From the NCBI RefSeq assembly GCF_036227605.1, contig NZ_CP109487.1:8047001-8111000 (forward strand): a stretch of DNA of 64,000 nt. Reading direction: 5' to 3'. How positions within the stretch are numbered: the stretch's first letter is position 1; the number at the start of each line of letters is the position of its first letter. A model generated the notes under the pieces. The model was not told where the DNA came from, searched no databases, and saw only the letters and a program-made list of their open reading frames with translations. Origin of the DNA: Streptomyces sp. NBC_01439. GTDB lineage: Bacteria > Actinomycetota > Actinomycetes > Streptomycetales > Streptomycetaceae. Both the position numbers and the translations under genes were made by a program. This document shows, one piece after another, positions 14,529 to 30,093 of the stretch.

Positions 14529-15086
14529 CGCAACCTCGCTACTTTCCGCCGGCATCCTCGTACGGGCCAACCGGGCGCATGGTCACTCTCCACGCAGTAG
14601 GTGATCACGCTACCGAGGACCCTGATCGACTGGAGTACATCACACCCCACGGAGCACGGCGCGGCGTGCCTGGGCGGCTCCGACACGCCTTGTAGCGGAA
14701 CTCACACCGGGCGGCCGCGTCACGCCCCGGCTCCGCTCCTAAGATCATTCTGGGAGCGGAGCCGGGTACCCGCTCCCACCGCCGCGGCCCCGCGCCGGTC
14801 GGTACGAGGGGCCCCAGCAGGCGGCCACTCGACCGTCGACCTGCGCTTTCACCGCTCCGCCCGGCAACCAACGACCGGCATGCACTCTCGACCAGGAGGC
14901 GTGACCACACCCCGCGCACCCTTGCCCGATTCCCCCGACCCGCCCTGACGCCCCGTCGTAGGGCGGACCGAACGGTGCGGCCCTTCCGCGTGGGACAACC
15001 AGCCCCTGGGATCTTCCGTGCAGCGCATCCGGCTCGACCCGCGATCCGTCGGATCCGTCCGCGCTGCCCCAACGAAAGGCAATACG
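14529..15086. other. Long divergent intergenic region with a strong hairpin
   Basis: 558 bases with no supportable gene, between the leftward FKBP and the rightward reductase. Open frames here lack ribosome sites and recognisable motifs. The most marked element is a 14-bp perfect inverted repeat at 14726-14766, listed separately. Promoters for both flanking genes should lie here. Confidence 0.5.
14726..14766. repeat. 14-bp perfect inverted repeat (GC-rich hairpin)
   Basis: Arms CCCGGCTCCGCTCC (14726-14739) and GGAGCGGAGCCGGG (14753-14766) flank a 13-base loop. The right arm shares bases with a second 8-bp repeat, GGGAGCGG (14752-14759) and CCGCTCCC (14770-14777), so two alternative stems are possible. 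There is no T-tract. Neither flanking gene ends here, so it is not an obvious terminator. Confidence 0.55.
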
Positions 15087-15992
15087 ATGACCGACAGCCG
15101 TTCCCTGAGCGTGGCGGTACTCGGACCCGGGGGCGTCGGCGGGCTGCTCGCCGCCCTGCTGGCACGAGCCGGCCACCGGGTGACCTGTCTGGCCGGTGAG
15201 GAGACCGTGCAGGCTCTGCGCCGTGACGGCATCCAGGTGAGCAGCGGCCAGTTCGGCGCCTTCACCGCAAGGGTCGACGCGGACACCGAACTGCGGCAGC
15301 CGGTCGACCTGTGCCTGGTGACGGTGAAGCAAACGGCGCTGGCGGCGGCGCTCGACCGAGTGCCGTCGGAGGTTCTGGGCGACGGCCTCGTCGTGCCGCT
15401 CCTGAACGGGATCGAGCACCCCGCCACGCTCCGCAAGCGCTACTCGGCGGAGCTCGTGGTGCCGGGAGTGATACGCGTCGAATCGAGCCGGCAGGCACCG
15501 GGCCGGATCGTGCACGGCAGCCCGTTCACGGAGATCGATCTGGCGAGCGCCACGGCGGATCGCGAACGCCTCGACGAGCTGGCCGGTGTGCTCGCGGACG
15601 CCGGAATCACCACCCGGGTGCGCGACGACGAGTCCGGTGCGCTGTGGGGGAAGTTGGCGTTCCTGGCCCCCTTCGCCCTGCTCACGACGCGCTACCGGCT
15701 TCCGATCGGCCAGATCCGCACCGAGCACCGTGACGAACTGCTGGCTCTGGTGGAGGAGGTGGCCGCGGTGAGCCGTGCCTGCGGTGCGCCGAGCGACACC
15801 GCCGGCACGGTGCGGCTGTACGACGCCTTCCCCGCCGCGGCGAAGTCGTCCATGCAGCGCGACGCCGAGGCCGGCCGACCGCTGGAGACGGACGCGATCG
15901 GAGGGGCGGTGCTGAGGGCCGCCGGGCTGCACGCGGTCCCGGTGCCGCGCGTGGCGAGCCTGCTGGAGGAGATCGGGGTGCGCGGCCACTGA
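15087..15992 (+). CDS. Ketopantoate reductase (ApbA/PanE) family oxidoreductase, atypical active site
   Basis: A 301-residue NAD(P)-dependent reductase. The N-terminal Rossmann motif VLGPGGVGGLLAALLARAGH fits the ApbA/PanE family, followed by TVKQT, NGIEHP and a C-terminal helical domain starting at LWGKLAFLAPF. The family's catalytic Lys is present (K189). The two Asn residues that follow it by four and eight positions in E. coli PanE are Leu and Ala here, so true 2-dehydropantoate reductase activity is doubtful. ATG 15087 has AAAGG upstream and leads straight into the Rossmann strand. It stands next to, and convergent with, the leftward arm of the biosynthetic locus and may act on one of its intermediates. 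Confidence 0.75.
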   Translation: MTDSRSLSVAVLGPGGVGGLLAALLARAGHRVTCLAGEETVQALRRDGIQVSSGQFGAFTARVDADTELRQPVDLCLVTVKQTALAAALDRVPSEVLGDGLVVPLLNGIEHPATLRKRYSAELVVPGVIRVESSRQAPGRIVHGSPFTEIDLASATADRERLDELAGVLADAGITTRVRDDESGALWGKLAFLAPFALLTTRYRLPIGQIRTEHRDELLALVEEVAAVSRACGAPSDTAGTVRLYDAFPAAAKSSMQRDAEAGRPLETDAIGGAVLRAAGLHAVPVPRVASLLEEIGVRGH

Positions 15993-16081
15993 CGGTCGCG
16001 TCGCCGGGGCGCCGGGACGCCGTACGGGCGGGTGCGACCGGGGAGTTGACCGGTGGCACCCGCCCCTGGGCGGTGGGTCGG

Positions 16082-17356
16082 TCACCCGTTCCGAGGGACG
16101 TACGCCTCCCCGGAACGCGCTTCGGTCCAGATGTCCTCGGCACTCACTTCCGCTACCCGGTACTTGCCCAACGAGCTGATCAGCAGGCGCATCTCCAACG
16201 CCAGGCAGTCGACGAAATTGGTGAGGCCCGCCTCCGCGTCCTCGTCCGACGCGACCAGGGCCGCCCGTCCGAGGCCCACCGCGGTAGCCCCGAGCGCCAG
16301 GCACTTGACCGCGCGGGCACCCTCCCAGATGCGACCGCTGACCAGCAGGGAGTTGTCCTGCGCGTCGAGGCGTTGCAGGCACTCCGCCAGCGGGAGCCCC
16401 ACGTGGTCGAGGAAGGCGCGGGGCGCCCAGCCGGTGCCGCCTTCCGCCCCGTCCACGGTGACCGAGTCCGCCCCGGCCGCCCAGGCAACGGCCGCAGCCA
16501 GGTGGACGTCGCGCGAGGGCGGCAGTTTGACCCACACCCGGCAGCGCGGATAGTTGTTGCGCATCAGCCGGATCTGCTGGCGGAGGATCTCCTCGGTGAA
16601 GGTTCCCGGGCTGCTGCAGCGCAGCACCGAGTCCTCGGCGGGTTCGTAGATGTCCAGGACGTCGTACTGCGCCGCCAGTTCGGCCGCGCGCTTGCGGGGC
16701 ACCAACGTCATGCCGCCCACGCCGGGCTTCGCACCCTGACCGACCTTCAACTCGAAGGCCAGCCGACCGCTCTCCAGCAGGGGGGCGGCCGAGGGGTCGC
16801 TGTACACCAGGTTCCACACTTCGGCGTCGGCGTCTTCGGTGCTCTGCTGGACGACCACACCGCCGAACCCGTCCGGCGCCGCCGCGGCGTACGCGGTGAT
16901 GCGGCGCAGCAGCGAGCTCTCCTTCTCCTCGGCCATTCGACCGTAGCCGGACACGGGGACGATGTTCTCACCGATCACCATGGGAACGCCCAGGCTTCCG
17001 GCCTGCCGGGCGACGGCCTCACCGAGGTCGCCGCTGGCCACCCTGGTGGAGCCGAACGCCGCGACGAACAACGGGAAGGCGGAGCGGAAGCCGCCGATCA
17101 TCGTGGTCAGGTCCACGTCCCCACTGATCGGTTCACGACCGAGGTCGATCAACTTCTCCATGCGGTGCGGTACGAAGACGGGCGGTACGAGACGGGCCCG
17201 GTCGATCGCGTCCTCCGGCCGGGCGGTCTGCTCGCCGTGCTCGCCGTAGAGCGTGGTCCCGTAGTTCCCGCTCTCCGGGAAGGCCGCGGCCGCGCCGTGC
17301 CGGGCACGGGCCCGTACCTGCTGCTCCGGGAACCCGGGAGCCGTCAGGCCGCTCAC
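16082..17356 (-). CDS. FMN-dependent glutamate-synthase-domain protein
   Basis: A 424-residue protein matching the central FMN/(beta/alpha)8 domain of glutamate synthase. Visible segments are FVAAFGSTRVASGDLGEAVARQA, the VPMVIGENI strand, LAFELKVGQGAKPGVGGMTL, the SPGTF and VWVKLPPS strands, SVTVDGAEGGTGWAPRAF (phosphate/FMN loop) and SLLVSGRIWEGARAVKCLALGATAVGLGR. The glutamine amidotransferase domain and the small NADPH/Fe-S subunit of true GOGAT are absent, so it is probably specialised, for example in reductive amination within the locus. The GTG start overlaps the stop of the AsnRS-like gene by four bases (GTGA), so the two are translationally coupled. Confidence 0.82.
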   Translation of the reverse strand: MSGLTAPGFPEQQVRARARHGAAAAFPESGNYGTTLYGEHGEQTARPEDAIDRARLVPPVFVPHRMEKLIDLGREPISGDVDLTTMIGGFRSAFPLFVAAFGSTRVASGDLGEAVARQAGSLGVPMVIGENIVPVSGYGRMAEEKESSLLRRITAYAAAAPDGFGGVVVQQSTEDADAEVWNLVYSDPSAAPLLESGRLAFELKVGQGAKPGVGGMTLVPRKRAAELAAQYDVLDIYEPAEDSVLRCSSPGTFTEEILRQQIRLMRNNYPRCRVWVKLPPSRDVHLAAAVAWAAGADSVTVDGAEGGTGWAPRAFLDHVGLPLAECLQRLDAQDNSLLVSGRIWEGARAVKCLALGATAVGLGRAALVASDEDAEAGLTNFVDCLALEMRLLISSLGKYRVAEVSAEDIWTEARSGEAYVPRNG

Positions 17357-18441
17357 GGACGCAGCTCCCCCGGCAGCTTGGGGTAGGCCGTCGCCTGCCA
17401 CACCGCATCGAGTCCGCCCAAGAAGCGGGTGAACCGCTCGACGCCCAGGCCGAAGCCCGCGCTGGAGGGGATCCCCTCGCGCGCCAGGGTGAGGTACCAC
17501 TCGTACTTCGCCGGGTTCTCGCCGGTCTCGCGGATCCGCATCATCAGGTTGCGGTAGTCCGACTCGCGCTCGCTGCCGCTCATCATCTCCCCGAAGCCAC
17601 CCGGGAAGATGAGGTCGAAGTTGCGCAGGACACCGGGCTCTTCGGCGCTTTCCTTGTCGTAGAAGCCGCGCGAGCCCTTGGGGTAGTCGGTGATGAAGAA
17701 CGGGTGCTCGGCCGCCTTGGAGATGATCTCCTCGCCCTCCCACTCGATCTCCGTGTTCTCGTCCTGGCCGTATCCGCCCCCGGCGAGCTGGGCCACCGCC
17801 TGCGAGTGCTTCACGCGGCCGTACGGCGCGTCGAGGACGCGCTTGAGCCCGTCCAGGTCGCGCCCGAGGATCTCCAGCTCCCGCTGAGCGGTGCTCAGCA
17901 CGTGCTCGACGCAGTGCCGGGTCAGCTCTTCCGCGACCCTCATCGCCTCCTCGCGCGAACCGCCGGCGATCTCCACGTCCAACTGGTGGAACTCGGTCAG
18001 GTGGCGGTGGGTCACCGCCGTTTCCAGCGGCTCGAGCCGGACGTTCGGGGCGACGTGGAAGATCTTGGGGAAGCTGAGCAGGGAAGCCTGCTTGTAGAGG
18101 ATGCCGCTCGTCATCAGCTTGTAGCGGTGACCGTAGTAGTCGATGTCGACCTGCTTGGCACCGCGGGCGCCCGGGTCGGTCACCGGGCCGATGGTGGGCG
18201 GCAACAGCTCGGTGAAGCCCTCACCGGAGAGGAAGTCCCGCGCTCCGGCCAGGAACCGGTTCTGGACGAGCAGTGCGGCGCGGGTGCGCTCCGAAGTCAG
18301 ATGGGCGAGCGGCGTCGGGAGCGTGGCCCCCGTGTTCTCAGCGGACAATCTCTCGTTCCGTTCGAGTGCTGTGACGAGGCGGGTGATAGAGGGGTGTGAC
18401 GCTCCGGACTGGGTCCGAAGCCGGGCAATGCGCGACAACAA
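17353..18441 (-). CDS. AsnRS/AspRS-like class II synthetase paralogue without a clear anticodon-binding domain
   Basis: A 362-residue class II aminoacyl-tRNA-synthetase core of the Asp/Asn subclass. Motif 1 lies near FTELLPPTIGP, motif 2 is VRLEPLE followed by THRHLTEFHQLDVE, and motif 3 is GFGLGVERF close to the C-terminus. The N-terminal OB-fold anticodon-binding domain of about 100 residues is not visible; only a short helical segment precedes the core. Such trimmed paralogues include archaeal asparagine synthetase (AS-AR) and AsnA, which adenylate an aspartate-like carboxylate without tRNA. Since the locus encodes glutamate mutase, 3-methylaspartate is an attractive substrate (inference). 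The start is uncertain: TTG 18441 is the longest frame, and a TTG about 96 bases in is an alternative. Confidence 0.78.
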   Translation of the reverse strand: MLSRIARLRTQSGASHPSITRLVTALERNERLSAENTGATLPTPLAHLTSERTRAALLVQNRFLAGARDFLSGEGFTELLPPTIGPVTDPGARGAKQVDIDYYGHRYKLMTSGILYKQASLLSFPKIFHVAPNVRLEPLETAVTHRHLTEFHQLDVEIAGGSREEAMRVAEELTRHCVEHVLSTAQRELEILGRDLDGLKRVLDAPYGRVKHSQAVAQLAGGGYGQDENTEIEWEGEEIISKAAEHPFFITDYPKGSRGFYDKESAEEPGVLRNFDLIFPGGFGEMMSGSERESDYRNLMMRIRETGENPAKYEWYLTLAREGIPSSAGFGLGVERFTRFLGGLDAVWQATAYPKLPGELRP

Positions 18442-18790
18442 TTCGGAACCTGGAATTCCATATCCGCCGCCGAAGAAGTGTGGCCGAGATCACTGAGCGG
18501 AAGATTCTTCTGCGGATGTATCGCCGCAGCTCTCGCAGGGTAGTGCAGCCCGGGAATTGATCTTGACTCATATGGAGCTTCCATGTCAAGATCTCCGAGG
18601 CACGGAGCAGTGGCCCCGGGATTGTTATGTCCGATACCCCAGCGTCGCGGCTGAACAAGCCATGAATTTCCTTGGAAAAGCCCGCGTCGAATCGACGAGA
18701 GCGTTGGCCGCGGACGCTGGCGTCTCTGCGCGGGCCGTCCTTCCGTGTGCCGAGACAGCACAGGTGCATCACACGACCGGAGGTTGACCC
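18442..18790. promoter_or_regulatory. Divergent promoter region of the biosynthetic locus
   Basis: 349 bases between the leftward synthetase arm and the rightward monooxygenase arm, noticeably richer in A+T than the surrounding genes. It holds the 35-bp palindrome listed separately. A 76-codon open frame (18557-18787) begins inside the palindrome and is not convincing as a gene. Promoters for both arms should be here. Confidence 0.6.
18559..18593. promoter_or_regulatory. 35-bp composite palindrome, probable operator
   Basis: Outer arms GATCTTGAC (18559-18567) and GTCAAGATC (18585-18593) are perfect. An inner pair, ATGGA (18572-18576) and TCCAT (18580-18584), is separated by three bases. It sits centrally in the divergent promoter region of the biosynthetic locus, with no T-tract, so it is more likely a regulator-binding site than a terminator. 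Confidence 0.55.
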
Positions 18791-19894
18791 GTGGGTCTGA
18801 GCAACGCTTCCCACCAGCATGAACCGGGCTCCGAGGAGCTGCGGTTCCACTGGTGCTCCCCCCTCGACAGCGGTCAGCAGAAGGCCACCGAGAAGTATCA
18901 GGTCGGTCATCTGGACTTCGACGGAATCGTTGATTTCGCCAAGGAGGCTGACCGGCTCGGAGTGGATTCCCTTTTGATGGGAATCAGCTATCACATGCCC
19001 GATCCACTGCCGATGATCGGTGCGCTGGTCCGGGAAACAGAGCGCGTCAAATTCATCCTGGCCTATCGCCCGGGACTGCTTTCCCCGACACTTTTTGCGC
19101 AGATCGTCAACACGGTCTCCTGGATGTCCAATGGTCGTATATCGCTGAATCTGGTTGCCGGTATTTCTCCGGCAGAGCAGGCGTACTACGGGGACTTCGT
19201 GGCGCACGACGGTCGCTATGCCCGTATGAACGAATTCCTCGACATCCTGCACCGCACCTGGCGCGGGGAAACGCCGCTTTCCTACAGCGGCGAGCACTAC
19301 CGCATCGAGGAGGCCCAGCTCGGGCTCGGATATCTCGGCGGCGGGCGTCCGGAGGTCTACATCAGTGGAGCTTCTGGTCCGGCCCAGGAGACCGCGCTCC
19401 AGCACGGCGACTGCTGGCTCCGCTACGGTGACACGCCCGAGGGCATCGCCGAGGCCGCCGCACCGGTGCTGGCCAAGGGCGGTCGGCTCGGGATCCGCAT
19501 GCACGTTCTGGCCCGCGAGACCCGTGCTGAGGCGCTCGCCGACCTCGCGGAGATGATGCGCGATCCGGACGAGGACCACCGCGAGTGGGTCGCGAAGTTC
19601 GTCGCCGCCTCCGACTCAGAGGCCGTGCGGAATTCCTTCCGGTTGGCCGAGCAGGCCGATGGGGACTGGCTCTCTCCGGTTCTCTACTCCGGCGCCGTGG
19701 CCTATCGCGGCGGCCCCGCACTGTGCGTGGTCGGAAGTTACCAGGAGGTAGCCGCATACCTGCACTCCTACAAGGCGGCAGGCGTCAGTGAGTTCATCTT
19801 CTCCGGCTGGCCGACCCGCGACGAGATGCGCACGTTCTACACGCACGTGCTCCCGCTGATCCGCAGACACGAAGAGAACGAGCGGACGGCATGA
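18791..19894 (+). CDS. Luciferase-like FMN-dependent monooxygenase (SsuD-type)
   Basis: A 367-residue (beta/alpha)8 flavin monooxygenase of the luciferase-like superfamily, SsuD branch. Supporting segments are LDFDGIVDFAKEADRLGVDSLLMG, VKFILAYRPGLLSPTLFAQ, ISLNLVAGISPAEQAYYGDF, YARMNEFLDILHRTWRG and VYISGASGPAQETA. These enzymes use reduced FMN from a separate reductase to oxygenate sulfur, nitrogen or carbon. A matching flavin reductase ends this same gene run (26981-27478), so the two probably form a two-component system. GTG 18791 has GGAGG about eight bases upstream. The stop overlaps the MFS start (ATGA). The substrate is not deducible. Confidence 0.87.
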   Translation: MGLSNASHQHEPGSEELRFHWCSPLDSGQQKATEKYQVGHLDFDGIVDFAKEADRLGVDSLLMGISYHMPDPLPMIGALVRETERVKFILAYRPGLLSPTLFAQIVNTVSWMSNGRISLNLVAGISPAEQAYYGDFVAHDGRYARMNEFLDILHRTWRGETPLSYSGEHYRIEEAQLGLGYLGGGRPEVYISGASGPAQETALQHGDCWLRYGDTPEGIAEAAAPVLAKGGRLGIRMHVLARETRAEALADLAEMMRDPDEDHREWVAKFVAASDSEAVRNSFRLAEQADGDWLSPVLYSGAVAYRGGPALCVVGSYQEVAAYLHSYKAAGVSEFIFSGWPTRDEMRTFYTHVLPLIRRHEENERTA

Positions 19895-21141
19895 CCGAAA
19901 ATCGGCTTCACCGGAGTCTTTTCGCCTCCGGCGTCCTCCTCGGTCTCATCGCGGAACAGGTCGTGCTGTTCGCCGTCCCTCTGCTCATATACCAGGACAC
20001 CCACGAGGTGGCGAGCCTCGGTTTAGCATTCGCACTCGAATGGCTTCCCGGCCTGATCGCCTACCCCTTCGCAGGGATCCTGGCCGACCGGGACGGCGGT
20101 GCCCGGCTCTTCTCCCGGGTGACCGCGGCCCGGGCTGCCGTGCTCGTGTGCGTGGTCGTCATCTGCCTGACCCAGTCGTCGTGGACGACCGGGGCCCTGA
20201 TGGCCGGCGGAGCCTTCCTCTCCGTCTTCATGGCGCCGACGCGGATGGCCGTGGAGAAGATGGTCCCGCAACTGGCCAAGGGCGACAAGGTGGCGAGCAC
20301 CCAGTCCCTCGTCCAGAACATGGAGCTGTTGGCCATGGCACTCGGACCCGCGCTCGCCGTCCTGGCCGCGTCCGTGCTGGGCAAGGTATGGCTGCTGATG
20401 GTCGCCGCCGGAGCCTTCGCCCTCGCTTCGGCGACCTGGCTGCCGCTGCCCCGTGGACTGCGGGCCCCGAGCACGGGCGAAGCCGGTAGCGCGGGGCAGG
20501 TCTTCGCCGAACTCGGTCTCGGATGGCGGCTGCTGATCGGTAACAAGCCCGTCCTGCTGCTGGGCGTCCTCAACTTCGCCATCAACCTGGTCGTGGCGAG
20601 CGTGCTGAGCGTCAACGCGGCGTTGGTGACCGACGTCTTCCATGCTCCCGACTCGTCGTTCGGATGGCTGAACACGTGCGTCGGTGTGACGGGCCTGCTC
20701 AACCTGATGGCGATCCCGTTCCTGCTTCGGCGGTTGAGCGTCGGGGCGCTCGGAGTCATCGGCTTCACCGCGATGTGCGCCGCGCTGCTCACGGCAGGGT
20801 TCGCCCCGTCCTTCGCCGTCTACGCTCCGGCCTTCGTGGCCATGCTGATCGGATCCGCCTACTACAACGTCTTCAATCGGACCCAGCGGCTGAAGGTGAT
20901 CCCCGAGGAACACCTGGGGAAGATCATGGGCCCCTTCTACCTCCTCAACTTGCTCTCGTTCCCCATCGCCGGCCTGCTCGTCGCCGGCGTCGGAACCGCG
21001 GCCGGCCCGCAGCAGCTCGTCACCGTGCTCTCGGTGCTGCTGTGCCTCTTCGGCGCCGTCTTCCTGCCGCTGACGATCCGCAGCTTCCGCAAGGCGCTGG
21101 CCAACCGCAACGACGAGGTCGTCTCAGGAGTCTCGGCATGA
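19891..21141 (+). CDS. MFS transporter, probable exporter of the locus product (TTA codon)
   Basis: A 416-residue membrane protein with about 12 hydrophobic segments and the major-facilitator loop motif ILADRDGGARLFSR after the second helix, as in MFS_3/enterobactin-exporter-type drug-efflux relatives. It lies inside the biosynthetic run, overlapping the monooxygenase upstream and the GlmS-like gene downstream by four bases each, so product export is the likely role. Codon 45 (20023-20025) is TTA, the rare leucine codon read by the bldA tRNA in Streptomyces. This would tie translation to developmental stage. Confidence 0.85.
   Translation: MTENRLHRSLFASGVLLGLIAEQVVLFAVPLLIYQDTHEVASLGLAFALEWLPGLIAYPFAGILADRDGGARLFSRVTAARAAVLVCVVVICLTQSSWTTGALMAGGAFLSVFMAPTRMAVEKMVPQLAKGDKVASTQSLVQNMELLAMALGPALAVLAASVLGKVWLLMVAAGAFALASATWLPLPRGLRAPSTGEAGSAGQVFAELGLGWRLLIGNKPVLLLGVLNFAINLVVASVLSVNAALVTDVFHAPDSSFGWLNTCVGVTGLLNLMAIPFLLRRLSVGALGVIGFTAMCAALLTAGFAPSFAVYAPAFVAMLIGSAYYNVFNRTQRLKVIPEEHLGKIMGPFYLLNLLSFPIAGLLVAGVGTAAGPQQLVTVLSVLLCLFGAVFLPLTIRSFRKALANRNDEVVSGVSA
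20023..20025 (+). promoter_or_regulatory. TTA (bldA-dependent) codon in the MFS gene
   Basis: In-frame TTA for Leu45 within ...SLGLAFAL... of the transporter. TTA codons are very rare in Streptomyces and usually mark genes of secondary metabolism or development. Confidence 0.8.
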
Positions 21142-21626
21142 GTCCAACCTTCCGGTGCCTGCTGAGCACCGTCGAGTCGGATTCCCACATCTGGAATCTC
21201 GTGTACCTCCAGAAGCTCCTGGAGGAGAACGGAGCCCAGGTACAGAACCTGGGCGCCTGCACGCCCATCAACGACGTCGTACGGGCCGTCTCCGAGAACC
21301 GGCCCGACCTGTTGGTCGTGTCGAGCGTCAACGGCCACGGACTCCACGGAGCGCGCTTGCTGCTCTCCGCCCTGCGCGAGCGGCGGCTCGAGGTCCCGAG
21401 CGTGGCCGGCGGCAAGCTGACCACGGCCGAGTCGGACAACGACCGCACCCGCCGTGAGCTCCTCGCCCACGGCTACACCGACGTATTCACCGGTGAGGAC
21501 GCCATCGACCGCTTCCTCACCTTCCTTCACTTCGGCAAGTCCGAAGGCTTCCCGGCCTGGCAGGCCGACGCCGCGGTCATCCCACCCTGGGACCTTGCCG
21601 GACTCAGCACCACGGAGGTCCACTGA
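21138..21626 (+). CDS. Cobalamin-binding protein, glutamate mutase small-subunit (GlmS/MutS)-like
   Basis: A 162-residue B12-binding fold. The N-terminal motif DSHIWN (D15, H17, N20) corresponds to the DxHxxG base-off/His-on motif: Asp and the cobalt-ligating His are kept while Gly is Asn. SSVNGHG near residue 60 and GGKLTTAE near residue 86 match the later cobalamin-cradle motifs. Together with the GlmE-like gene at 24386 it should form adenosylcobalamin-dependent glutamate mutase, which converts L-glutamate to L-threo-3-methylaspartate. Unusually, the two subunit genes are separated by ligase genes. ATG 21138 overlaps the MFS stop, and the stop overlaps the next ATG by one base. Confidence 0.82.
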   Translation: MSPTFRCLLSTVESDSHIWNLVYLQKLLEENGAQVQNLGACTPINDVVRAVSENRPDLLVVSSVNGHGLHGARLLLSALRERRLEVPSVAGGKLTTAESDNDRTRRELLAHGYTDVFTGEDAIDRFLTFLHFGKSEGFPAWQADAAVIPPWDLAGLSTTEVH

Positions 21627-22867
21627 TGCATATCGTGATCGTCAACCGGTGGCCCCGGTTCAAGGAAGACGGCGTACGGTGGGACAACGAGCTCACCCGT
21701 TACGAGGAGTTCATCGACCACGACGCCCACCAGGTCAGCTACGTCGTCGACGCGCTCGGCGCCGAGGGAGTGCTCGCCGATCCGGCGAAGATCGCACACC
21801 TGGTGCGGGTCGACGATGTCAACGACGTCGACGCGCTGCGCGCGGCCGTCGTCGAGGTGACCGAAAAGGTCGGCCCCGTCGACCAGTTGATCGCCCTGTC
21901 CGAGTTCACCCTGGAGATCGCCGCCAAGGTCCGCGAGGACCTCGGCCTTCCCGGGCCGACCACGGCCGAGGTCGCGGTCTACCGGGACAAGGTGCGGATG
22001 AAGGAGATCCTGGCGGCCGCCGGCGTCCGGGTCCCCCGCTTCGCCGCGTGCACCGACGTGGAGAGCGGACTCGCCTTCGCCCGCTCGTGCGGCTACCCGG
22101 TGATCCTCAAGCCGGTGGACGGCGCCGCGAGCATCGGGGTCCACCGTGTCGAGGACGAGGCGACGCTGGCCGAACTCCTGGCCGCGGTCGACCTGAAGCG
22201 CTACGAGATCGAGGAGTTCGTCACCGGCACCATCCACCACGTGGACGGCTTCGCCGACGCCCGGTCCGAGATCGGGTTCCAGGTCACGTCGCGGTACGTG
22301 AACGACTGCCTGTCCTTCGGTGCCGGTGAACCGCTGGGATCGGTCGTGCTCCAGCGCTCCCCCCTGAGGGACCGGATGGAGGAGTTCTCCCGTGGGTGCG
22401 TCCGCGCCCTCGCCATGCGTGACACACCGTTCCACCTCGAGCTCTTCGTCACGCCGGAGGACGAGATCGTCTTCCTGGAGATCGGCGGCCGGGTCGGCGG
22501 CAGCGAGGTCCCCCACCTCCTCAACAAGCTGTTCGGGGTCAACCTCTTCGAAATCTGGCTGCGGGCCATGTGCGGGGAGTCGATCATGCCGGCACCCACC
22601 TCGGGCGACCCGTCCGGCGGCTGGTTGGTCGTGCCCAAGCCGGCAGGCCTGCCGGCGGTGGTCCGGAAGGCATCGTCCATGCGGGAATCGGTCCCGGCCG
22701 TATGGCGCGAACTGCTGCCCTCCGTGGGCGAGGTGCTGGAGCCCGGCGGCGCGTACGACGCCCTGCACGCCGGCCGGTTCATCCTGCTGCACGACGACCA
22801 GGCCCAGGTGGAGGCCGACATCCGCCGCATCATCGAGACCTTCGAATTCGAGGTGACTTCGCTGTGA
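21626..22867 (+). CDS. ATP-grasp ligase 1
   Basis: A 413-residue ATP-grasp enzyme of the amino-acid/peptide ligase kind. Features are a Rossmann-like N-terminal part (HIVIVNRWPRF), the substrate-binding region DKVRMKEILAAAGVRVPRFA, the ATP-binding strand YPVILKPVDGAASIGVHRV, hinge residues EIEEFVTGTIHHVDGF, and the metal-binding end (HLELFVTPEDEIVFLEIGGRVGGSEVP) with Glu and Asn/Gly-rich turns. Such enzymes form amide bonds through acyl-phosphates. The gene is translationally coupled on both sides. A plausible task is joining the methylaspartate-derived unit to another amino acid, but this is inference. Confidence 0.85.
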   Translation: MHIVIVNRWPRFKEDGVRWDNELTRYEEFIDHDAHQVSYVVDALGAEGVLADPAKIAHLVRVDDVNDVDALRAAVVEVTEKVGPVDQLIALSEFTLEIAAKVREDLGLPGPTTAEVAVYRDKVRMKEILAAAGVRVPRFAACTDVESGLAFARSCGYPVILKPVDGAASIGVHRVEDEATLAELLAAVDLKRYEIEEFVTGTIHHVDGFADARSEIGFQVTSRYVNDCLSFGAGEPLGSVVLQRSPLRDRMEEFSRGCVRALAMRDTPFHLELFVTPEDEIVFLEIGGRVGGSEVPHLLNKLFGVNLFEIWLRAMCGESIMPAPTSGDPSGGWLVVPKPAGLPAVVRKASSMRESVPAVWRELLPSVGEVLEPGGAYDALHAGRFILLHDDQAQVEADIRRIIETFEFEVTSL

Positions 22868-24384
22868 ACGACCAGCCGACCCAGGACCAGCCGACCCAGG
22901 ACCAGCGCCTCAGCGACCGCGACCGCTACGCGCAGTTGGCCGCCTTCCTCAGCGACATCGAGCTGAAGGGCATGGTCGCCGTCGGTGACCGACTCGTCGA
23001 GGCCGTCGGAGGCCCCGACCTGCTGCCCGGCCGCAAGGTGATGGTGGCCTACGGAGGCGGCAAGGACAGCACGTACGTGGTCGCCTTCGTGCGGGCGGTC
23101 CAGCTGCACCTCCAGCTCACCCACGGCCACACGTTCGTCATGCGGGTCGCCAACATGCGGCACGCCGGTGTGCCGCTGGCCGTCATGGAGAACATCCACC
23201 GGGTGTACGAGGCCCTCGGGCTGCTCGACGACGAGCGGGCCGAGCTCCTGACCATCGACCACACCGAGATCCGCCGGTTCCGCGTGGACCTTCCGCTGCC
23301 GGAGCGCCTGGTCAACCTCAACCGGCTCGACGTCCTGATGAACGGTCACCGGTCGGCCGGGGACGGCCGGCCGACGTTCTGCAACAGCTGCAACCTGGCG
23401 GTGGCCGACTTCTACGGTCGCGCTGCCTGGTGGCAGGACGGTGTCGACGTGATCATGACCGGAGACTCCCGGCGCGAGCAGGCGCTCTACTCCGCCTGGA
23501 TCATGCGCCTGGCCAAGGCGAGCGGCATCGACGTGGAGGAATGCCGCCGGATGGGCTTCCAGGGCCTGCTCACGGCCCTGCGCGGCATCGGTGACGCATA
23601 CTTCCGCGAGCTCTTCGGTGACGGTCGCGAGGCAGAAGTCGCGGAGCGCGCCGTCTCCACCGGAGACCGCTCGATGCAGCCCGAGTTCGTCTCGATCTAC
23701 GACATGGTCAGCTACCGCGTCCACGACCACTGGGACCTGATCGTCGACTTCCTCGGCTTCCGGTTCGACGACCTCGCCTTCAGCTTCACCGAGTCGGACT
23801 GCGCGAACCCGACCCTGATGGCCCATCTGCGGGGCCTGCGCGCCCAGTACGTGGAGTCCCGCACCTACGAGGCGGGCATCTCCGAGTACCTGGAGCTCGC
23901 CGAGGCGATGATGCGCAAGAAGGAGATGCCGGAGAACCTGATCCGGCTCGCACTGAGCCGCTACGACTCGCCGGTCAAGATCGTCGAGCGGCGGGAGGTG
24001 GCCACCGCCTACGCGCGCGACGTCTTCGGCCTGAGCGAGGCCGCGCTCACCGCGATGGTCTACTCGCCCTTCACGGACGAAGGCGCGCGGCTGGAGGGGT
24101 TCATCGCGTCCTGCCACCCGGAGATGGCCGACAGGACCGCAGAGCTGCACGCTGCGCTGCGCGGTGACGGCACGGACACCGACGGGGCGGCCGAGTGGCT
24201 GGAGAAGATCTCCGCGCTGTCCCTGACGGACCTGCGCACGCTCTACCGCAGCGCACTGGTGGACTTCGGCGCGCAGCAGACGATGATTTCCCGGGTGCGC
24301 GCGGGCGACCCGCACAAGAGCCAGGTCAAGACGGTCGACCCGACCACGGGCCTACCCGTCCTCGAACTCATATCGGGTCGGTGA
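22864..24384 (+). CDS. PP-loop (N-type ATP pyrophosphatase) family enzyme
   Basis: A 506-residue protein with a PP-loop at about residues 60-67 (AYGGGKDST, the SGGxDS-type motif), followed by RVANMRHAG and a CNSCN cluster near residue 175 that could bind zinc. The fold activates a carbonyl or carboxylate by adenylation, as in N-acetyl-sugar amidotransferases, asparagine synthetase and tRNA thiolases. No glutaminase domain is seen. The C-terminal 250 residues are helical and I do not recognise them. The N-terminus has a short QPTQD duplication from a 15-bp DNA repeat near 22873. GTG 22864 overlaps the upstream stop (GTGA). It is likely a dedicated activating enzyme of the locus. Confidence 0.75.
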   Translation: MNDQPTQDQPTQDQRLSDRDRYAQLAAFLSDIELKGMVAVGDRLVEAVGGPDLLPGRKVMVAYGGGKDSTYVVAFVRAVQLHLQLTHGHTFVMRVANMRHAGVPLAVMENIHRVYEALGLLDDERAELLTIDHTEIRRFRVDLPLPERLVNLNRLDVLMNGHRSAGDGRPTFCNSCNLAVADFYGRAAWWQDGVDVIMTGDSRREQALYSAWIMRLAKASGIDVEECRRMGFQGLLTALRGIGDAYFRELFGDGREAEVAERAVSTGDRSMQPEFVSIYDMVSYRVHDHWDLIVDFLGFRFDDLAFSFTESDCANPTLMAHLRGLRAQYVESRTYEAGISEYLELAEAMMRKKEMPENLIRLALSRYDSPVKIVERREVATAYARDVFGLSEAALTAMVYSPFTDEGARLEGFIASCHPEMADRTAELHAALRGDGTDTDGAAEWLEKISALSLTDLRTLYRSALVDFGAQQTMISRVRAGDPHKSQVKTVDPTTGLPVLELISGR

Positions 24385-24385
24385 C

Positions 24386-25642
24386 GTGGCCGGGTACTTT
24401 GACCGGCTGGTGACCGAAAGCCGCGGCCGGGGCACGGTGCTCGTACAGCCGCGGATGGGCTTCGGCAGCCTCCGGGCGATGCAGGACGGGCTGTCCCAGG
24501 TCGCGTCGCTCGGGCTGCCCGCCGTCGGGACGCTCACGCTCGACAGCTACACCCGGGTCGGCGACTACACCACGCCCCTGGAGCGGCTGGCCGCGGACGA
24601 GGAGCTGAACGGGTACCCGCTGGTCTCCCACCCGGCCGAGGCCACCAGGGCACTGCTCGACGGGCTCCACGGCCCCGCGTTCCCGGTCCAGGTGCGGCAC
24701 GGCACCGCGCTACCGCTGCGGGTCTTCCAGCGATTGGTCGAAGTCGGTCTCGACGCCACCGAGGGCGGCCCCGTCTCGTACTGCCTCCCCTACAGCCGGT
24801 TGCCGCTCGCCCGGGCCGTTGCGGCCTGGGCGGAGAGCTGCCGGTTCCTGGCCGGCGAGACCGAGCACGGACACGTCGAGAGCTTCGGCGGGTGCCTGCT
24901 CGGCCAACTCTGCCCGCCCTCGCTGTTGGTGGCCACCGCCGTGCTGGAGGGCTGCTTCTTCCAGCAGCACGGGCTGCGCCACATGTCGCTTAGCTTCGCC
25001 CAGGGGGTGCTCGCCGAGCAGGACCGCGGCGCTCTCCGGGCGCTGCGCACGCTCGCCGCCGAGCACCTGTCCGGGGTGGACCAGCACGTCGTGCTCTACA
25101 CGTACATGGGTCTGTTCCCCAAGACGCCGGACGGCGCCACCGCCCTGATCCGCGACAGCGCCCGGCTCGCCCGCGACGCCGGGTGCGAGCGGATGATCGT
25201 GAAGACGGTCTCCGAGGCGTGGCAGATCCCGACGGTCGCCGAGAACCTCGCCGCCCTGCGGATCGCCGCAGACGCGTCGAACGGCACCCCGGCCGCGCCG
25301 ACCGTCCTGGAGGACGCCTTCTACGACGAGGTTCTGGAGGAGGCGAGGCTTCTCGTGGACACGGTGCTGGGCCTCGATCCCGATGTCGGTACCGCGCTGA
25401 CGAAGGCCTTCGAACGAGGGATCCTCGACATCCCGTTCGGCCTGCACCCGGACAACGCCGGCGCGACGACCAGCGTGATCGACGACCGCGGGGCGCTGGC
25501 GTGGGGCTCCCGCGGCAACCTGCCGCTGCCCGGGACGTCCAAGGGCGCCGGTGTCGAGGACTTCAGCTCCGACCGGCTCCACGCCATGCTCAACCACGTC
25601 GCCGACCGCTACGACCAGGCTGCGGCCCTGGCCGAGACGTGA
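24386..25642 (+). CDS. Glutamate mutase epsilon-subunit (GlmE/MutE)-like protein
   Basis: A 418-residue protein resembling the TIM-barrel subunit of methylaspartate mutase: VLVQPRMGFGSL near the start, GTLTLDSYTRVGDY, NGYPLVSHP, FPVQVRHGTALPL, EGGPVSYCLPYSR, then FGGCLLGQLCPPS and GLRHMSLSFAQG. The HG and RHG segments match the glutamate-binding arginines of the family. With the cobalamin subunit at 21138 it should rearrange glutamate to 3-methylaspartate. It is somewhat shorter than clostridial GlmE (about 480 residues). GTG 24386 begins one base after the PP-loop gene. In actinomycete clusters such as vicenistatin the same mutase feeds a beta-amino-acid starter, so a comparable precursor role is likely. 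Confidence 0.82.
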   Translation: MAGYFDRLVTESRGRGTVLVQPRMGFGSLRAMQDGLSQVASLGLPAVGTLTLDSYTRVGDYTTPLERLAADEELNGYPLVSHPAEATRALLDGLHGPAFPVQVRHGTALPLRVFQRLVEVGLDATEGGPVSYCLPYSRLPLARAVAAWAESCRFLAGETEHGHVESFGGCLLGQLCPPSLLVATAVLEGCFFQQHGLRHMSLSFAQGVLAEQDRGALRALRTLAAEHLSGVDQHVVLYTYMGLFPKTPDGATALIRDSARLARDAGCERMIVKTVSEAWQIPTVAENLAALRIAADASNGTPAAPTVLEDAFYDEVLEEARLLVDTVLGLDPDVGTALTKAFERGILDIPFGLHPDNAGATTSVIDDRGALAWGSRGNLPLPGTSKGAGVEDFSSDRLHAMLNHVADRYDQAAALAET

Positions 25643-25684
25643 CTCAACCATGCATAGTTTCCCTACCAGTTGGCGAGACGACCC

Positions 25685-26932
25685 GTGACCCCAGAACTTT
25701 CCGATCAGCCTGCCGTCGTACTGGTGGACGCGTTCTCCAGCGGCGCCCTGCTGGCGCGCCAGGCCGCCGGCCGCTTCCGCCTCATTCACGTCCGCTCGCG
25801 CCGCGAGCTCCCGCAGACCTTTGCCGCCAGCCTCCCGGCCGGACTGTTCGAGGTGGACCTCACCTACCCGGGCAACGCCCAGGACGTGCAGCGACGTCTC
25901 GCTGAGCTCGGTCCGGTCGCCGTCATCCCGGCGAGCGAGTTCGGCGTGGAGACCGCCGACGAGATCGCCGCAGCGCTGGGTCTGCGCGGGAACGACCCTT
26001 CGCTCTCGCCCGCCCGGCGGGACAAGGCCCTGATGATGGAGGCCCTGGCAGCGGCGGGCGTACGCACACCGCGCCAGCTGAAGGGGACGGATCCGGATCA
26101 GCTGCTGGCCTGGCAGCGTGAGCAGGGCATCGACAGGGTCGTCGTCAAGCCGCTGGACAGCGCCGGCTCCGAGGACGTCTTCACCTGCGACACCGACCAG
26201 GAGGTGAAGACCGCGGTCGAGACCATCATGGGCAAGACCAACCTCATGCTGCGGGCGAACGAGGCGGTCCTGGGACAGGAATACCTCGTCGGTGACGAGT
26301 ACATCATCAACTCGGTCAGCAGGGACGGTACGCACCGGTTCACCGATGCGTGGATCAGCCGCAAGGTGGTGGTGGACGAGCGACGGAAGATCTACGACTA
26401 CGAGGACCTGCTCGCACCGGACGACCCGCGTCTCGACGAGATCCTGCCCTACGTCTGCGACGTCCTCGACGCACTCGGCATCGCCAACGGCCCGGCCCAC
26501 ACCGAACTGATCCTCACGGCGGGTGGTCCCGTGCTGCTGGAAACCGGTGCCCGGATCTCCGGACTCGCCAACCCTCCCGCCCTCCAGCGGTGCACCGGCG
26601 CCGACCAGGTGAGTCTGACGCTGGACTGCTACACCGCCGACGCACCGGAGCTGAGCCGGCGGCCCGTGCGCTACGCGCAGCAGGAGTCGGCGCGCTGTGT
26701 GAACCTCATCGCCCACCGCGAGGTGCCGCTGCCGGAGCGGGCCGTCCGGGCGGCACTCGAGGGCCTTCCGGCCTTCGAGAGCATCCGGTTCCGCAAGGGC
26801 GACGGTGCGGTCACCAGCCGGACGGTCGACCTCAACTCCTCTCCGGGCGCGGTCTTCTTCGTCCACCGCGACGACGCCGAGATCGAACGCTCGTACCAGG
26901 CACTGCGCGCGATGGAGCACGAGCTCCTCTGA
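25685..26932 (+). CDS. ATP-grasp ligase 2
   Basis: A 415-residue ATP-grasp enzyme related to carboxylate-amine ligases of natural-product pathways. Seen are an N-terminal Rossmann part (AVVLVDAFSSGALLARQAAG), the central ARRDKALMMEALAAAGVRTPRQ, the ATP-binding strand IDRVVVKPLDSAGSEDVFTC, hinge EYLVGDEYIINSV, and a metal site in PAHTELILTAGGPVLLETGARISG. The locus thus encodes two ligases, suggesting at least a tripeptide-like or twice-amidated product (inference). GTG 25685 is used; a TTG at 25670 would add five residues. It follows the GlmE-like gene after 42 bases, the only clear gap in this arm apart from the next. Confidence 0.83.
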   Translation: MTPELSDQPAVVLVDAFSSGALLARQAAGRFRLIHVRSRRELPQTFAASLPAGLFEVDLTYPGNAQDVQRRLAELGPVAVIPASEFGVETADEIAAALGLRGNDPSLSPARRDKALMMEALAAAGVRTPRQLKGTDPDQLLAWQREQGIDRVVVKPLDSAGSEDVFTCDTDQEVKTAVETIMGKTNLMLRANEAVLGQEYLVGDEYIINSVSRDGTHRFTDAWISRKVVVDERRKIYDYEDLLAPDDPRLDEILPYVCDVLDALGIANGPAHTELILTAGGPVLLETGARISGLANPPALQRCTGADQVSLTLDCYTADAPELSRRPVRYAQQESARCVNLIAHREVPLPERAVRAALEGLPAFESIRFRKGDGAVTSRTVDLNSSPGAVFFVHRDDAEIERSYQALRAMEHELL

Positions 26933-26980
26933 CGTCCCACGCACGCTGCGGTACCCCACCTATGAAACGCGGTAAGTCAT

Positions 26981-27478
26981 ATGCCCGTCACTTCCCAGCA
27001 GTTCCGCGAGATCTTCGGTTCCTTCCCGACCGCCGTCGCCGTCATCACGGCGATGGACGAGGACGGCGAGCCTCGGGGATTCACGTGCAACGCCGTCTGC
27101 GCCGTGTCCGCTTCGCCGCCGTTGTTGCTGATCGGGGTGGACAAGAAGTCCCAGACCCTCCCGGCGATCCTCTCTTCCGGGGCCTTCGCGGTGAACTTCC
27201 TCGGCGCGTCGGGCACCGAGGCGTCACGGATCTTTGCCGGCAAGGGTCACGACAAGTTCTCGGGCATCGAGTGGCAGCCGTCCCCGGTGGCGGACGGCGC
27301 TCCCGTGCTGACCGACGTCGCGCTGGCCGTCGCCGAGTGCCGCACGGAACAGACGGTCCAGGCCGGCGACCACTGGCTGATCATCGCGCGGGTCGACGGC
27401 GGAACCGTCTTTCCCCGCGACCCCCTCCTCTACTGCCGGGGCGCCTACAGCACCTGGACGCAACCGGCGGCCGTGTAG
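26981..27478 (+). CDS. Flavin reductase (FMN-binding, HpaC/Fre-like)
   Basis: A 165-residue flavin-reductase domain protein. Motifs: FREIFGSFPTAVAVITAMDEDGEPRGFTCNAV near the N-terminus, SASPPLLLIGV, SGAFAVNFLG, GDHWLIIARV and YCRGAYSTW at the end. Such proteins reduce FMN with NAD(P)H and hand it to partner monooxygenases, here most likely the luciferase-like enzyme at the head of this gene run. No strong ribosome site precedes ATG 26981. It is the last gene of the arm and faces the eCIS coiled-coil gene. Confidence 0.9.
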   Translation: MPVTSQQFREIFGSFPTAVAVITAMDEDGEPRGFTCNAVCAVSASPPLLLIGVDKKSQTLPAILSSGAFAVNFLGASGTEASRIFAGKGHDKFSGIEWQPSPVADGAPVLTDVALAVAECRTEQTVQAGDHWLIIARVDGGTVFPRDPLLYCRGAYSTWTQPAAV

Positions 27479-28616: not shown

Positions 28617-29210
28617 ATGGCTGGATACCGGGCACTCGCCGCCGTGGGGCGCAGCGTCGTCGACCTGCTCAACCGGCGGTTCATCGAGGAGATCCCCGTG
28701 GGCCCGCGCCCGGAGGCCGTCCTCGCCGGGCCGGTGGACTTCGACAAGGTGGACACCGCCGGAGCCGTCATCCGCCGGCCCGCGGTCACCGTGTACTGCT
28801 ACCGGCTGAGCATCGACCGCGAGACCCGGCCCTCCTGGGCGGCCGTCGCGGCCCAGGACGGCACGTCCCGGCTGCCGCTGAGGATGCATCTGCTCATCGC
28901 CGCATGGGACAAGTTCGTCGAGTCGGAACTGGAATGGCTCGGCCTCGCCACCCGGGCACTGGAGAGCACGGGTCCGCTCACCGGCCCCCTCCTCCACGCC
29001 AGCGGGGACTGGGAGGCGGGGGATTCGGTGCAGATCATCCCCGACGACCTGGCGATGGACTCGATGAGCGAGGCGTTCCAGGCGATGACCACCGACTACC
29101 GGCTCTGCATGCCCTATCTCGCCCGGGTCGTCCGGATCGACGGGCGGCCCGGACGGGCATCCGGCGAGGTCACCGTCGTCGCCACTGCGCTGTCGGAGAA
29201 GGCCCGATGA
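28617..29210 (+). CDS. DUF4255 / Pvc16-type eCIS tail-terminator protein
   Basis: A 197-residue protein starting the eCIS operon. It has the DUF4255 (Pvc16 N-terminal domain) pattern: N-terminal ALAAVGRSVVDLLNRRF, a middle RPAVTVYCYRLSID, RLPLRMHLLIAAW, and ATRALESTGPL before the C-terminal LDM-like turn DDLAMDSMSEAFQAM. In PVC/Afp-type particles this protein caps the tube and sheath at the end distal to the baseplate. Its neighbours (sheath, tube and AAA+ ATPase genes) confirm the context. The stop overlaps the next ATG by four bases. Confidence 0.85.
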   Translation: MAGYRALAAVGRSVVDLLNRRFIEEIPVGPRPEAVLAGPVDFDKVDTAGAVIRRPAVTVYCYRLSIDRETRPSWAAVAAQDGTSRLPLRMHLLIAAWDKFVESELEWLGLATRALESTGPLTGPLLHASGDWEAGDSVQIIPDDLAMDSMSEAFQAMTTDYRLCMPYLARVVRIDGRPGRASGEVTVVATALSEKAR

Positions 29211-30070
29211 CGGACGGCTCCGACCACCGGATCACCGTCGAGGTGGGCGTGGTGGACGTACTGCACCGGCTCGCCCTGGCCGTCCGTCCGCTCGACGCCA
29301 GAACCCGTGCCCCGGCCGGCCCGGGTCTGCGCGTCGGCCGGGAGACCGGGCACGCCCCCGGCCGCCGGCCGCGCCCCGACGATCTGATCCGGCCGCTGGA
29401 GAGCCACGGCGCCACCGGATTCGTCCTGCGGCACGGCACGGCCGGCGCCCTCGGCCAGACCGTGACCGTGCGCGTCGACGACCCCGCCCGCCGCTGGGTC
29501 CCGCGGCGCTTCTCCCTGCCGCTGTGGACCCGCGCCGAACTCGCCGGCGCCGATGCCCGGCCGCCGACCGCCGCCCACGTCCGGGCCGACGCCCGACTGC
29601 TGCTCCCGTGGCTGCTGCCCGGCCCGTCCTACCCCGTGCCGCAGGGCCTGACGGGCATGCGGCTGCGGGTCATCCGCGCGGGCGAACCGGTGCGCTGGCC
29701 GCGCGTGGACGCGTACGGTCAGGGCGGCGTCCAGATCGGCTGGGCCCACGGTGACGAACACGGGCAGGTGCTGCTCCTGATCGACCGCCTGCCGTACTCG
29801 GTGCAGTCCCAGTTCCCCGTCGCACTGCGCACCCACGCCCCGGATCCGGCGAACGCCCCGCCACCCGATCCACTGGACCCGTTGGCGGACCTGGTCGCCG
29901 AAGCGGTCACCCGCAGTGCCTCCCCGCCCCGGCCGCAGGACCTCGACAACGGGCTCCTGCGCGGCACCGACGTGCCGGCCGGCTACCACACCGCCTCCGC
30001 GTACACCGTCCGCACACTCACCGTCGGTCAGGTGGTTCACGCCGACGACCTGCCCCACACCACCGCCTGA
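29207..30070 (+). CDS. eCIS operon protein of unknown function
   Basis: A 287-residue protein between the cap and sheath genes. It is Pro/Arg-rich near the middle (RLLLPWLLPGPSYPVPQGLTGMRL) with probable beta strands, and I see no signal peptide, membrane helix or recognised enzyme motif. The region FVLRHGTAGALGQTVTVRVDDPARRWVPRRF followed by short strands looks like an immunoglobulin-like or carboxypeptidase-regulatory-like sandwich at about residues 60-115. Translational coupling to the cap gene suggests it is a structural or assembly component, perhaps at the cap end. Confidence 0.65.
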   Translation: MTDGSDHRITVEVGVVDVLHRLALAVRPLDARTRAPAGPGLRVGRETGHAPGRRPRPDDLIRPLESHGATGFVLRHGTAGALGQTVTVRVDDPARRWVPRRFSLPLWTRAELAGADARPPTAAHVRADARLLLPWLLPGPSYPVPQGLTGMRLRVIRAGEPVRWPRVDAYGQGGVQIGWAHGDEHGQVLLLIDRLPYSVQSQFPVALRTHAPDPANAPPPDPLDPLADLVAEAVTRSASPPRPQDLDNGLLRGTDVPAGYHTASAYTVRTLTVGQVVHADDLPHTTA

Positions 30071-30093
30071 CCCGCGACCGAGGAGATCCGTCC

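Follow-up and report, generated by a model that had tools for sequence, protein, structure and literature searches.

The window analysed here is a 64,000-nucleotide stretch of Streptomyces sp. NBC_01439 (NZ_CP109487.1, forward-strand positions 8,047,001 to 8,111,000), part of a 9.58-Mb single-contig genome. Between positions 15018 and 27478 it carries eleven genes, in two divergent arms plus a PanE-like gene, that are proposed to form a biosynthetic cluster for a small peptide, free of non-ribosomal peptide synthetase (NRPS) and polyketide synthase (PKS) genes (Table 1). The leftward arm encodes an enzyme of the asparagine synthetase A (AsnA) type and a GltS-like flavin mononucleotide (FMN) enzyme. 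The rightward arm encodes, in order, a monooxygenase, a major facilitator superfamily (MFS) exporter, GlmS, ATP-grasp ligase 1, a PP-loop enzyme, GlmE, ATP-grasp ligase 2 and a flavin reductase; from the monooxygenase through GlmE, neighbouring genes overlap or sit within a few bases. Pfam families back every cluster protein apart from the PP-loop protein, which carries a GGGKDS motif, and the enzymes named in a preliminary description of this DNA (mutase, aminoacyl-tRNA synthetase core, GltS-like, PP-loop and two ATP-grasp enzymes, monooxygenase with reductase, exporter) are all present. The PanE-like gene should be counted with the cluster and the boundary extended to include it. The most likely start of the GltS-like gene is GTG 17356, overlapping the AsnA stop, and that of the AsnA-type gene is TTG 18348, giving 331 residues.

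Table 1 Genes and features of the cluster, in positions of the window
Feature	Position	Strand	Evidence and remarks
ApbA/PanE-like 2-dehydropantoate 2-reductase	15018..15992	+	PF02558/PF08546; TIGR00745 186.5 bits; start perhaps ATG 15087
GltS-like FMN enzyme, accessory	16082..17356	-	PF01645 (Glu_synthase), PF01070 (FMN_dh)
Asparagine synthetase A-type (AspRS-like) enzyme	17353..18348	-	PF00152; NF005052 420 bits
Inverted repeat CTTGAC-N17-GTCAAG	18562..18590	between arms	similar pairs in other loci
SsuD-type flavin-dependent monooxygenase (luciferase-like, LLM)	18791..19894	+	PF00296 (Bac_luciferase)
MFS exporter	19891..21141	+	PF07690; in 30/31 full clusters
GlmS-type B12-binding subunit	21138..21626	+	PF02310; NF002612 below cut-off
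ATP-grasp ligase 1	21626..22867	+	nearest solved chain 4wd3
PP-loop ATPase	22864..24384	+	GGGKDS, C173-x2-C176, C313; no Pfam match
GlmE-type catalytic subunit	24386..25642	+	PF06368 (Met_asp_mut_E) 264 bits
ATP-grasp ligase 2, PRK07206-like	25670..26932	+	NF005543 348.5 bits; nearest solved chain 30vh
Flavin reductase	26981..27478	+	PF01613 (Flavin_Reduct)

GlmE scored far above the PF06368 cut-off of 26.6 bits and reached only 152.7 bits against TIGR01503, whose cut-off is 390, which points to a diverged subfamily. When it was aligned to the Clostridium glutamate mutase 6h9e, residues R66, R100, R149, E171, Y177, Y181, K326 and E330 were identical; these are the substrate arginines and catalytic residues. 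The cobalamin motif of GlmS proteins is DxHxxG, and here it reads DSHIWN, with the Asp and His kept and the Gly replaced by Asn. GlmS matched the model for methylaspartate mutase subunit S (NF002612) under its cut-off and had no PDB sequence match at 1e-5.

The gene on the leftward arm that had been called asparaginyl-tRNA synthetase (AsnRS)-like requires a different label. Its product passed the NCBIfam asparagine synthetase A model NF005052 (cut-off 368 bits), stayed well below the AsnRS cut-offs, and consists of the aminoacyl-tRNA synthetase core only, lacking an anticodon-binding domain; a tRNA-dependent role was rejected on these grounds. Its LYKQ motif aligns with LYKQ of the aspartyl-tRNA synthetase (AspRS) 1n9w and LHKQ of 3p8t, whereas AsnRS has LYLE or LYAE, so that the lysine is common to AspRS and archaeal asparagine synthetase and AsnRS has a glutamate. 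At this position the lysine binds the carboxylate, and glutamate takes its place in AsnRS. The counterpart in Pseudomonas locus L037 scored 318 bits against a second asparagine synthetase A model, above its cut-off of 309, and the one from Salinisphaera scored 304, just under that cut-off. The nearest solved chains to the GltS-like protein were glutamate synthase large subunits (E 1e-8).

Both ATP-grasp proteins are nearest in sequence to L-amino acid ligases, with E-values of 2e-22 for ATP-grasp 1 and 6e-64 for ATP-grasp 2. The latter also passed NF005543 (cut-off 302) and is related to DdaF and L-amino acid ligase. The nearest solved chains to the monooxygenase were alkanesulfonate monooxygenases (E 3e-46). 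The flavin reductase is proposed to supply FMNH2 to the monooxygenase; of the full clusters defined below (31 in all), only six showed one like that of the window. In L036, a small downstream protein without an NCBIfam match was read by eye as an FMN reductase.

What sets the cluster apart is its PP-loop enzyme, which also marks a wider set of clusters. Comparison with Pfam, PHROGs, NCBIfam and PDB sequences did not place it clearly in any family: Pfam and PHROGs gave no match, and no NCBIfam model was matched at its cut-off (some Pfam and NCBIfam scans used a longer open frame). Membership of the NAD/GMP synthetases was rejected, the fold alone being held in common.

Relatives of the PP-loop protein were sought in a scan of named genomes, and the best 80 of 94 confirmed loci were analysed, with gene presence scored at thresholds chosen by the analyst. 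GlmE was found in 38 of the 80 loci, all 38 of which also had GlmS and AsnA. The monooxygenase and ATP-grasp 1 were present as well in 31 of these, hereafter called full clusters (GlmE, GlmS, AsnA, monooxygenase and ATP-grasp 1), together with the MFS exporter and ATP-grasp 2 in 30 of 31 each. Because the mutase, AsnA, monooxygenase and ATP-grasp 1 recur together in 31 of 80 loci in two phyla, the gene set is not due to chance; the cluster family is real and widespread, from Streptomyces to Pseudomonas. A GltS-like gene occurred in 18 full clusters (Streptomyces, Streptacidiphilus, Nocardia, Cellulomonas, Micromonospora), and the 13 without it were from Pseudomonas and Burkholderiales. The monooxygenase is the protein most conserved between the two phyla, with 72-93% identity across full clusters; it also occurred at 65-68% in two relatives outside the set, G026, which has no PP-loop match, and G063, where it lies 1.8 Mb from the PP-loop gene. 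In a separate search of 199 genomes the PP-loop protein had a match in eight, six of them strong (own genome included), and a relative of at least 73% in three, again including its own. The two other genomes (89% and 73%) have the same gene set and order, with a PanE-like gene nearby.

In a tree of 43 PP-loop proteins, the seven rows from actinobacterial full clusters, window included, formed one branch with 100% SH-aLRT support. A group of 17 rows, comprising these seven, four from proteobacterial full clusters, three from minimal loci and three from a Pseudomonas group, was separated from the other 26 with 100% support. Rows from loci with methionyl-tRNA synthetase (MetRS)-like genes and GlmS-GlmE-AsnA fell among those 26, so that the mutase/AsnA set is found with PP-loop proteins of two separate clades, an argument for a functional link. 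Such MetRS-like loci with GlmS-GlmE-AsnA-GltS numbered three of the 80 (L082, L092, L097), plus the cut-off L093, and two further MetRS-like loci lacked that set. By eye, L082, L092 and L097 have FAD-oxidase-like genes, and L082 also a lysine-monooxygenase-like gene; such a make-up is known from hydrazine-forming pathways.

AsnB lay beside the PP-loop gene in 12 of the 80 loci (L068, L075, L080, L084, L088 and seven more), several of which appeared by eye to have stand-alone adenylation/carrier protein, FAH-like and HMGL-like genes. At the T/K positions, the L068 adenylation domain appears to agree with Asp/Asn codes. L096 (Streptomyces lincolnensis) has the monooxygenase/ligase/exporter arm without a glutamate mutase, and the short contigs L048, L049 and L055 have AsnA, GlmS and GlmE only. 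The 27 loci without GlmE, AsnA, monooxygenase, AsnB or MetRS gave 14 MocR-like, two ATP-grasp-2-like and one PanE-like match. The Pseudomonas loci L050, L052-L054, L056, L058-L065, L070 and L071 show a PP-loop relative accompanied by a LysR-like gene, in most cases also by a MocR-type gene nearby, and no glutamate mutase or ligases. Read by eye, the PP-loop protein of L089 (6701-11482) follows, in one fused chain, an NRPS-like protein that has condensation-, adenylation- and carrier-like parts, and L017 and L018, from another genus, have a PP-loop-like protein among cupin-, MetRS- and lysine-monooxygenase-like genes; the GGGKDS motif is degenerate in L017.

A minimal cassette is carried by a Methylobacter plasmid, where asparagine synthetase A is followed by the B12-binding protein, the PP-loop protein (annotated "hypothetical protein"), a gene at the GlmE position, an EamA transporter and a pyridoxal phosphate (PLP)-aminotransferase-like, MocR-type gene. 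The GlmE-position gene is annotated only as hypothetical; the corresponding gene of Methylobacter L049 matches GlmE at 56%. In Salinisphaera L055 the order is AsnA-GlmS-PP-loop-GlmE-PanB-EamA-MocR, on a contig that ends just before AsnA. No ligase is annotated within the 29 kb shown of the plasmid; with no ligase in the minimal cassette, its product should be of amino-acid size.

A pathway in six steps may be drawn from these assignments. GlmS and GlmE would convert L-glutamate to 3-methyl-L-aspartate, as the conserved residues suggest, and the AsnA-type enzyme would use ATP and ammonia to turn the side-chain carboxylate into the amide of 3-methylasparagine. The PP-loop enzyme may then activate this amide with ATP to give an amidine, nitrile or thioamide, a nitrile or amidine being preferred, and the product would be a valine/isoleucine-shaped amino acid. 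This would be oxygenated by the SsuD-type monooxygenase, supplied by the flavin reductase; the two L-amino acid ligases would add one or two ordinary amino acids, and the MFS protein would export the di- or tripeptide. Finally, the PanE-like protein in actinobacteria, or an extra PanB in proteobacteria, would provide a bypass around the inhibited pantoate pathway and so protect the producer. Taken as a whole, this scheme of an NRPS-free cluster for a peptide antimetabolite may be right or wrong with about equal probability. Family scores, active-site residues, gene content, linkage and conservation are observed, while the reactions, the product and the role in resistance are inferred. The small peptide-like product from 3-methylaspartate proposed in the preliminary description stays the best-supported reading, given the GlmE residues, the AsnA type and the two ligase-type ATP-grasps, with the aminoacyl-tRNA synthetase-like gene now read as an amide synthetase and the PanE-like gene added. 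A more specific version is possible, if rather less probable than its negation: that the PP-loop proteins are a new family converting asparagine-type amides to nitriles or amidines, that AsnA-GlmS-PP-loop-GlmE is a portable pathway to a Val/Ile mimic (for example 2-amino-3-cyanobutanoate or an amidine) with its target in the branched-chain/pantoate pathway, and that PanB/PanE confer resistance.

The nature of the PP-loop reaction bears most directly on this scheme. The structural model of the protein aligned best to the amide-to-amidine transferase LpNASAT (8wex), at 9% identity, N-acetyl sugar amidotransferases (WbpG/WbuX, LpNASAT) being its best fold match. According to PMC10607449, this family changes an amide carbonyl, probably with ATP, and has a tetracysteine zinc site N-terminal of the PP-loop. 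That N-terminal motif is missing from the protein, and TIGR03573, the N-acetyl sugar amidotransferase model, gave weak matches in only 4 of 43 members (best E 0.013) and none at E 1 for the window protein. The invariant cysteines (173, 176 and 313) all lie after the PP-loop instead, in the order PP-loop, CxxC, TGDS, Cys. This arrangement resembles that of TtuA/NcsA-type thiolases, which carry a [4Fe-4S] cluster on three cysteines, and an enzyme that exchanges amide oxygen for sulfur, as the tRNA thiolases do, followed by oxidation of the thioamide sulfur by the SsuD-type monooxygenase, is an alternative that we consider unlikely. Foldseek placed NcsA and LarE first among the matches listed, the solved chains nearest to the monooxygenase are by name enzymes acting on sulfonates, and in L096 a PRK10621-like permease gene (below cut-off), which we take to be of TauE type, adjoins the PP-loop gene. 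However, the Foldseek matches were not significant, the best structural alignment was to an amidotransferase, the scan of the cluster genes revealed no recognisable sulfur donor, and partnership with amide-forming enzymes suits nitrogen chemistry equally. The structure-match tables list the top families, and others may also fit. In PMC13060819, two nitrile synthetases are called argininosuccinate-synthetase-like (ArtA) and asparagine-synthetase-like (PesC); no sequence match to the PP-loop protein was found for the ATP-dependent nitrile synthetases ArtA/NitB, QueC/ToyM and PesC.

The pantoate genes are the second point at which readings diverge. PanB lay beside 10 of the 13 full clusters without GltS, in L055, and on the Methylobacter plasmid, there about 5 kb beyond the cassette and separated from it by a transposase and a group II intron. 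All six genomes searched had two PanB copies; the cluster copies are 50-75% alike and 36-44% alike to the other copy. The PanE-like protein passed the subfamily model TIGR00745 (cut-off 141), stayed below the cut-offs of all matched equivalog models, and its gene was near 15 of 18 GltS-bearing full clusters. That one gene set is accompanied by two enzymes of the same pathway in two phyla points to self-resistance, because an amino acid derived from 3-methylasparagine would resemble valine or isoleucine; this suggests that the pantoate-pathway genes protect against a valine/isoleucine-shaped antimetabolite. The PanE side of this argument is the weaker one. A PanE-like homologue of at least 57% was found in 23 of 100 genomes, own included, 20 of which lack the cluster. 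In the nine of these 20 that were inspected, the gene sits among shared neighbours with no other cluster gene, and thus looks ordinary there. The link between PanE and the cluster is weak, and is weaker evidence than PanB. A biosynthetic role for PanE/PanB, either in pantoate supply or in hydroxymethylation and reduction of a methylaspartate-derived keto acid that becomes part of the product, seems quite improbable. It would accord with the cluster PanB copies being a distinct, co-travelling set and with the place of the PanE-like gene, which is within the L034 cluster (32% match) and at the end of the L051 one. The ordinary appearance of the gene in the nine cluster-free Streptomyces counts against this role too, as do the Methylobacter plasmid, with PanB about 5 kb from the cassette and no ligase annotated in the 29 kb, and the fact that PanB and PanE were not seen together in any full cluster.

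It is doubtful, to a degree greater still, that the PP-loop enzyme is an amide or peptide-bond synthetase and the product a plain 3-methylasparagine peptide with no unusual group: NAD synthetase and similar PP-loop enzymes amidate carboxylates, and NAD synthetases were among the structural matches, but the clusters already have an amide synthetase and two ligases, and such an activity would be redundant in the 12 other loci with AsnB. Primary metabolism (methylaspartate catabolism) is very improbable. Glutamate mutase does occur in catabolic and assimilation pathways, but none of the cluster genes scanned was identified as a methylaspartate ammonia-lyase, the mutase genes are linked to peptide ligases and an exporter, and the spread in the 199 genomes is patchy.

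By analogy, the proposed cluster works like a bacilysin/dapdiamide-type ligase pathway, and what is new is an amino-acid module with an unclassified PP-loop enzyme. In those pathways, ATP-grasp L-amino acid ligases (bacilysin BacD, dapdiamide DdaF, RizA) likewise join a warhead amino acid, with an exporter and no NRPS, and the two ATP-grasps here are related to such ligases in sequence. Here, in contrast, the warhead would come from the combined action of B12 glutamate mutase, asparagine synthetase A and the PP-loop enzyme. GlmS/GlmE likewise supply 3-methylaspartate in macrolactam and friulimicin-type clusters (compare PMC11284099), whereas the present cluster is free of PKS and NRPS. A separate locus in the same genome (L121, G000:C1:2772001-2790000), by eye of vicenistatin-type macrolactam-like content, has its own GlmE/GlmS pair, adjoining PLP decarboxylase-like, adenylation-enzyme-like and acyltransferase-like genes. 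A third GlmE match (L122, G000:C1:4670001-4688000) lies near genes that look aspartate-semialdehyde-dehydrogenase-like and aspartokinase-like. The MetRS-like peptide operons of PMC2922099, which include a PP-loop "AsnSyn" gene, have a PP-loop ATPase by ATP-grasp and MetRS-like genes, as do L082, L092 and L097, the PP-loop genes being likened by description only; unlike the clusters here, that text does not contain the word "mutase". An azaserine-type pathway was rejected: "PP-loop", "asparagine synth" and "glutamate mutase" are absent from the main text of PMC10445470, and no MetRS-like or lysine-monooxygenase family was found among the cluster proteins scanned. No published cluster with this gene set appeared among the matches listed in searches of mainly open-access literature.

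The clusters represent a pathway module that recurs and that searches for NRPS/PKS genes would tend to overlook, and their PP-loop enzyme is found in several settings: beside AsnB, MetRS-like genes or other ATP-grasps, and in the window type. The four-gene cassette makes its reaction directly testable in vitro. Should the PanB/PanE link reflect resistance, it would suggest that a natural product inhibits pantoate or branched-chain amino acid metabolism.

Open reading frames 14745-16817(-), 18338-19579(-) and 24710-26959(-) are fully or largely antisense to real genes, and the first two had no Pfam family at E 0.001. Upstream neighbours include FKBP, GMC oxidoreductase and peroxidase genes, and from 28617 (28617-31980 and beyond) Pvc16_N and phage-sheath genes indicate an extracellular contractile injection-type locus. 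These flanking genes were not found by tblastn in the first seven relatives' loci, and are thus not counted as cluster. Rfam at gathering scores gave no match anywhere in the window, hence no cobalamin riboswitch of a described family. Pairs like the inverted repeat between the arms (N16-17) occurred in 5 of 15 other loci compared (L019, L020, L027, L028, L029) and were absent from the other 10, Nocardia included; the repeat is a candidate operator or pair of overlapping divergent promoters.

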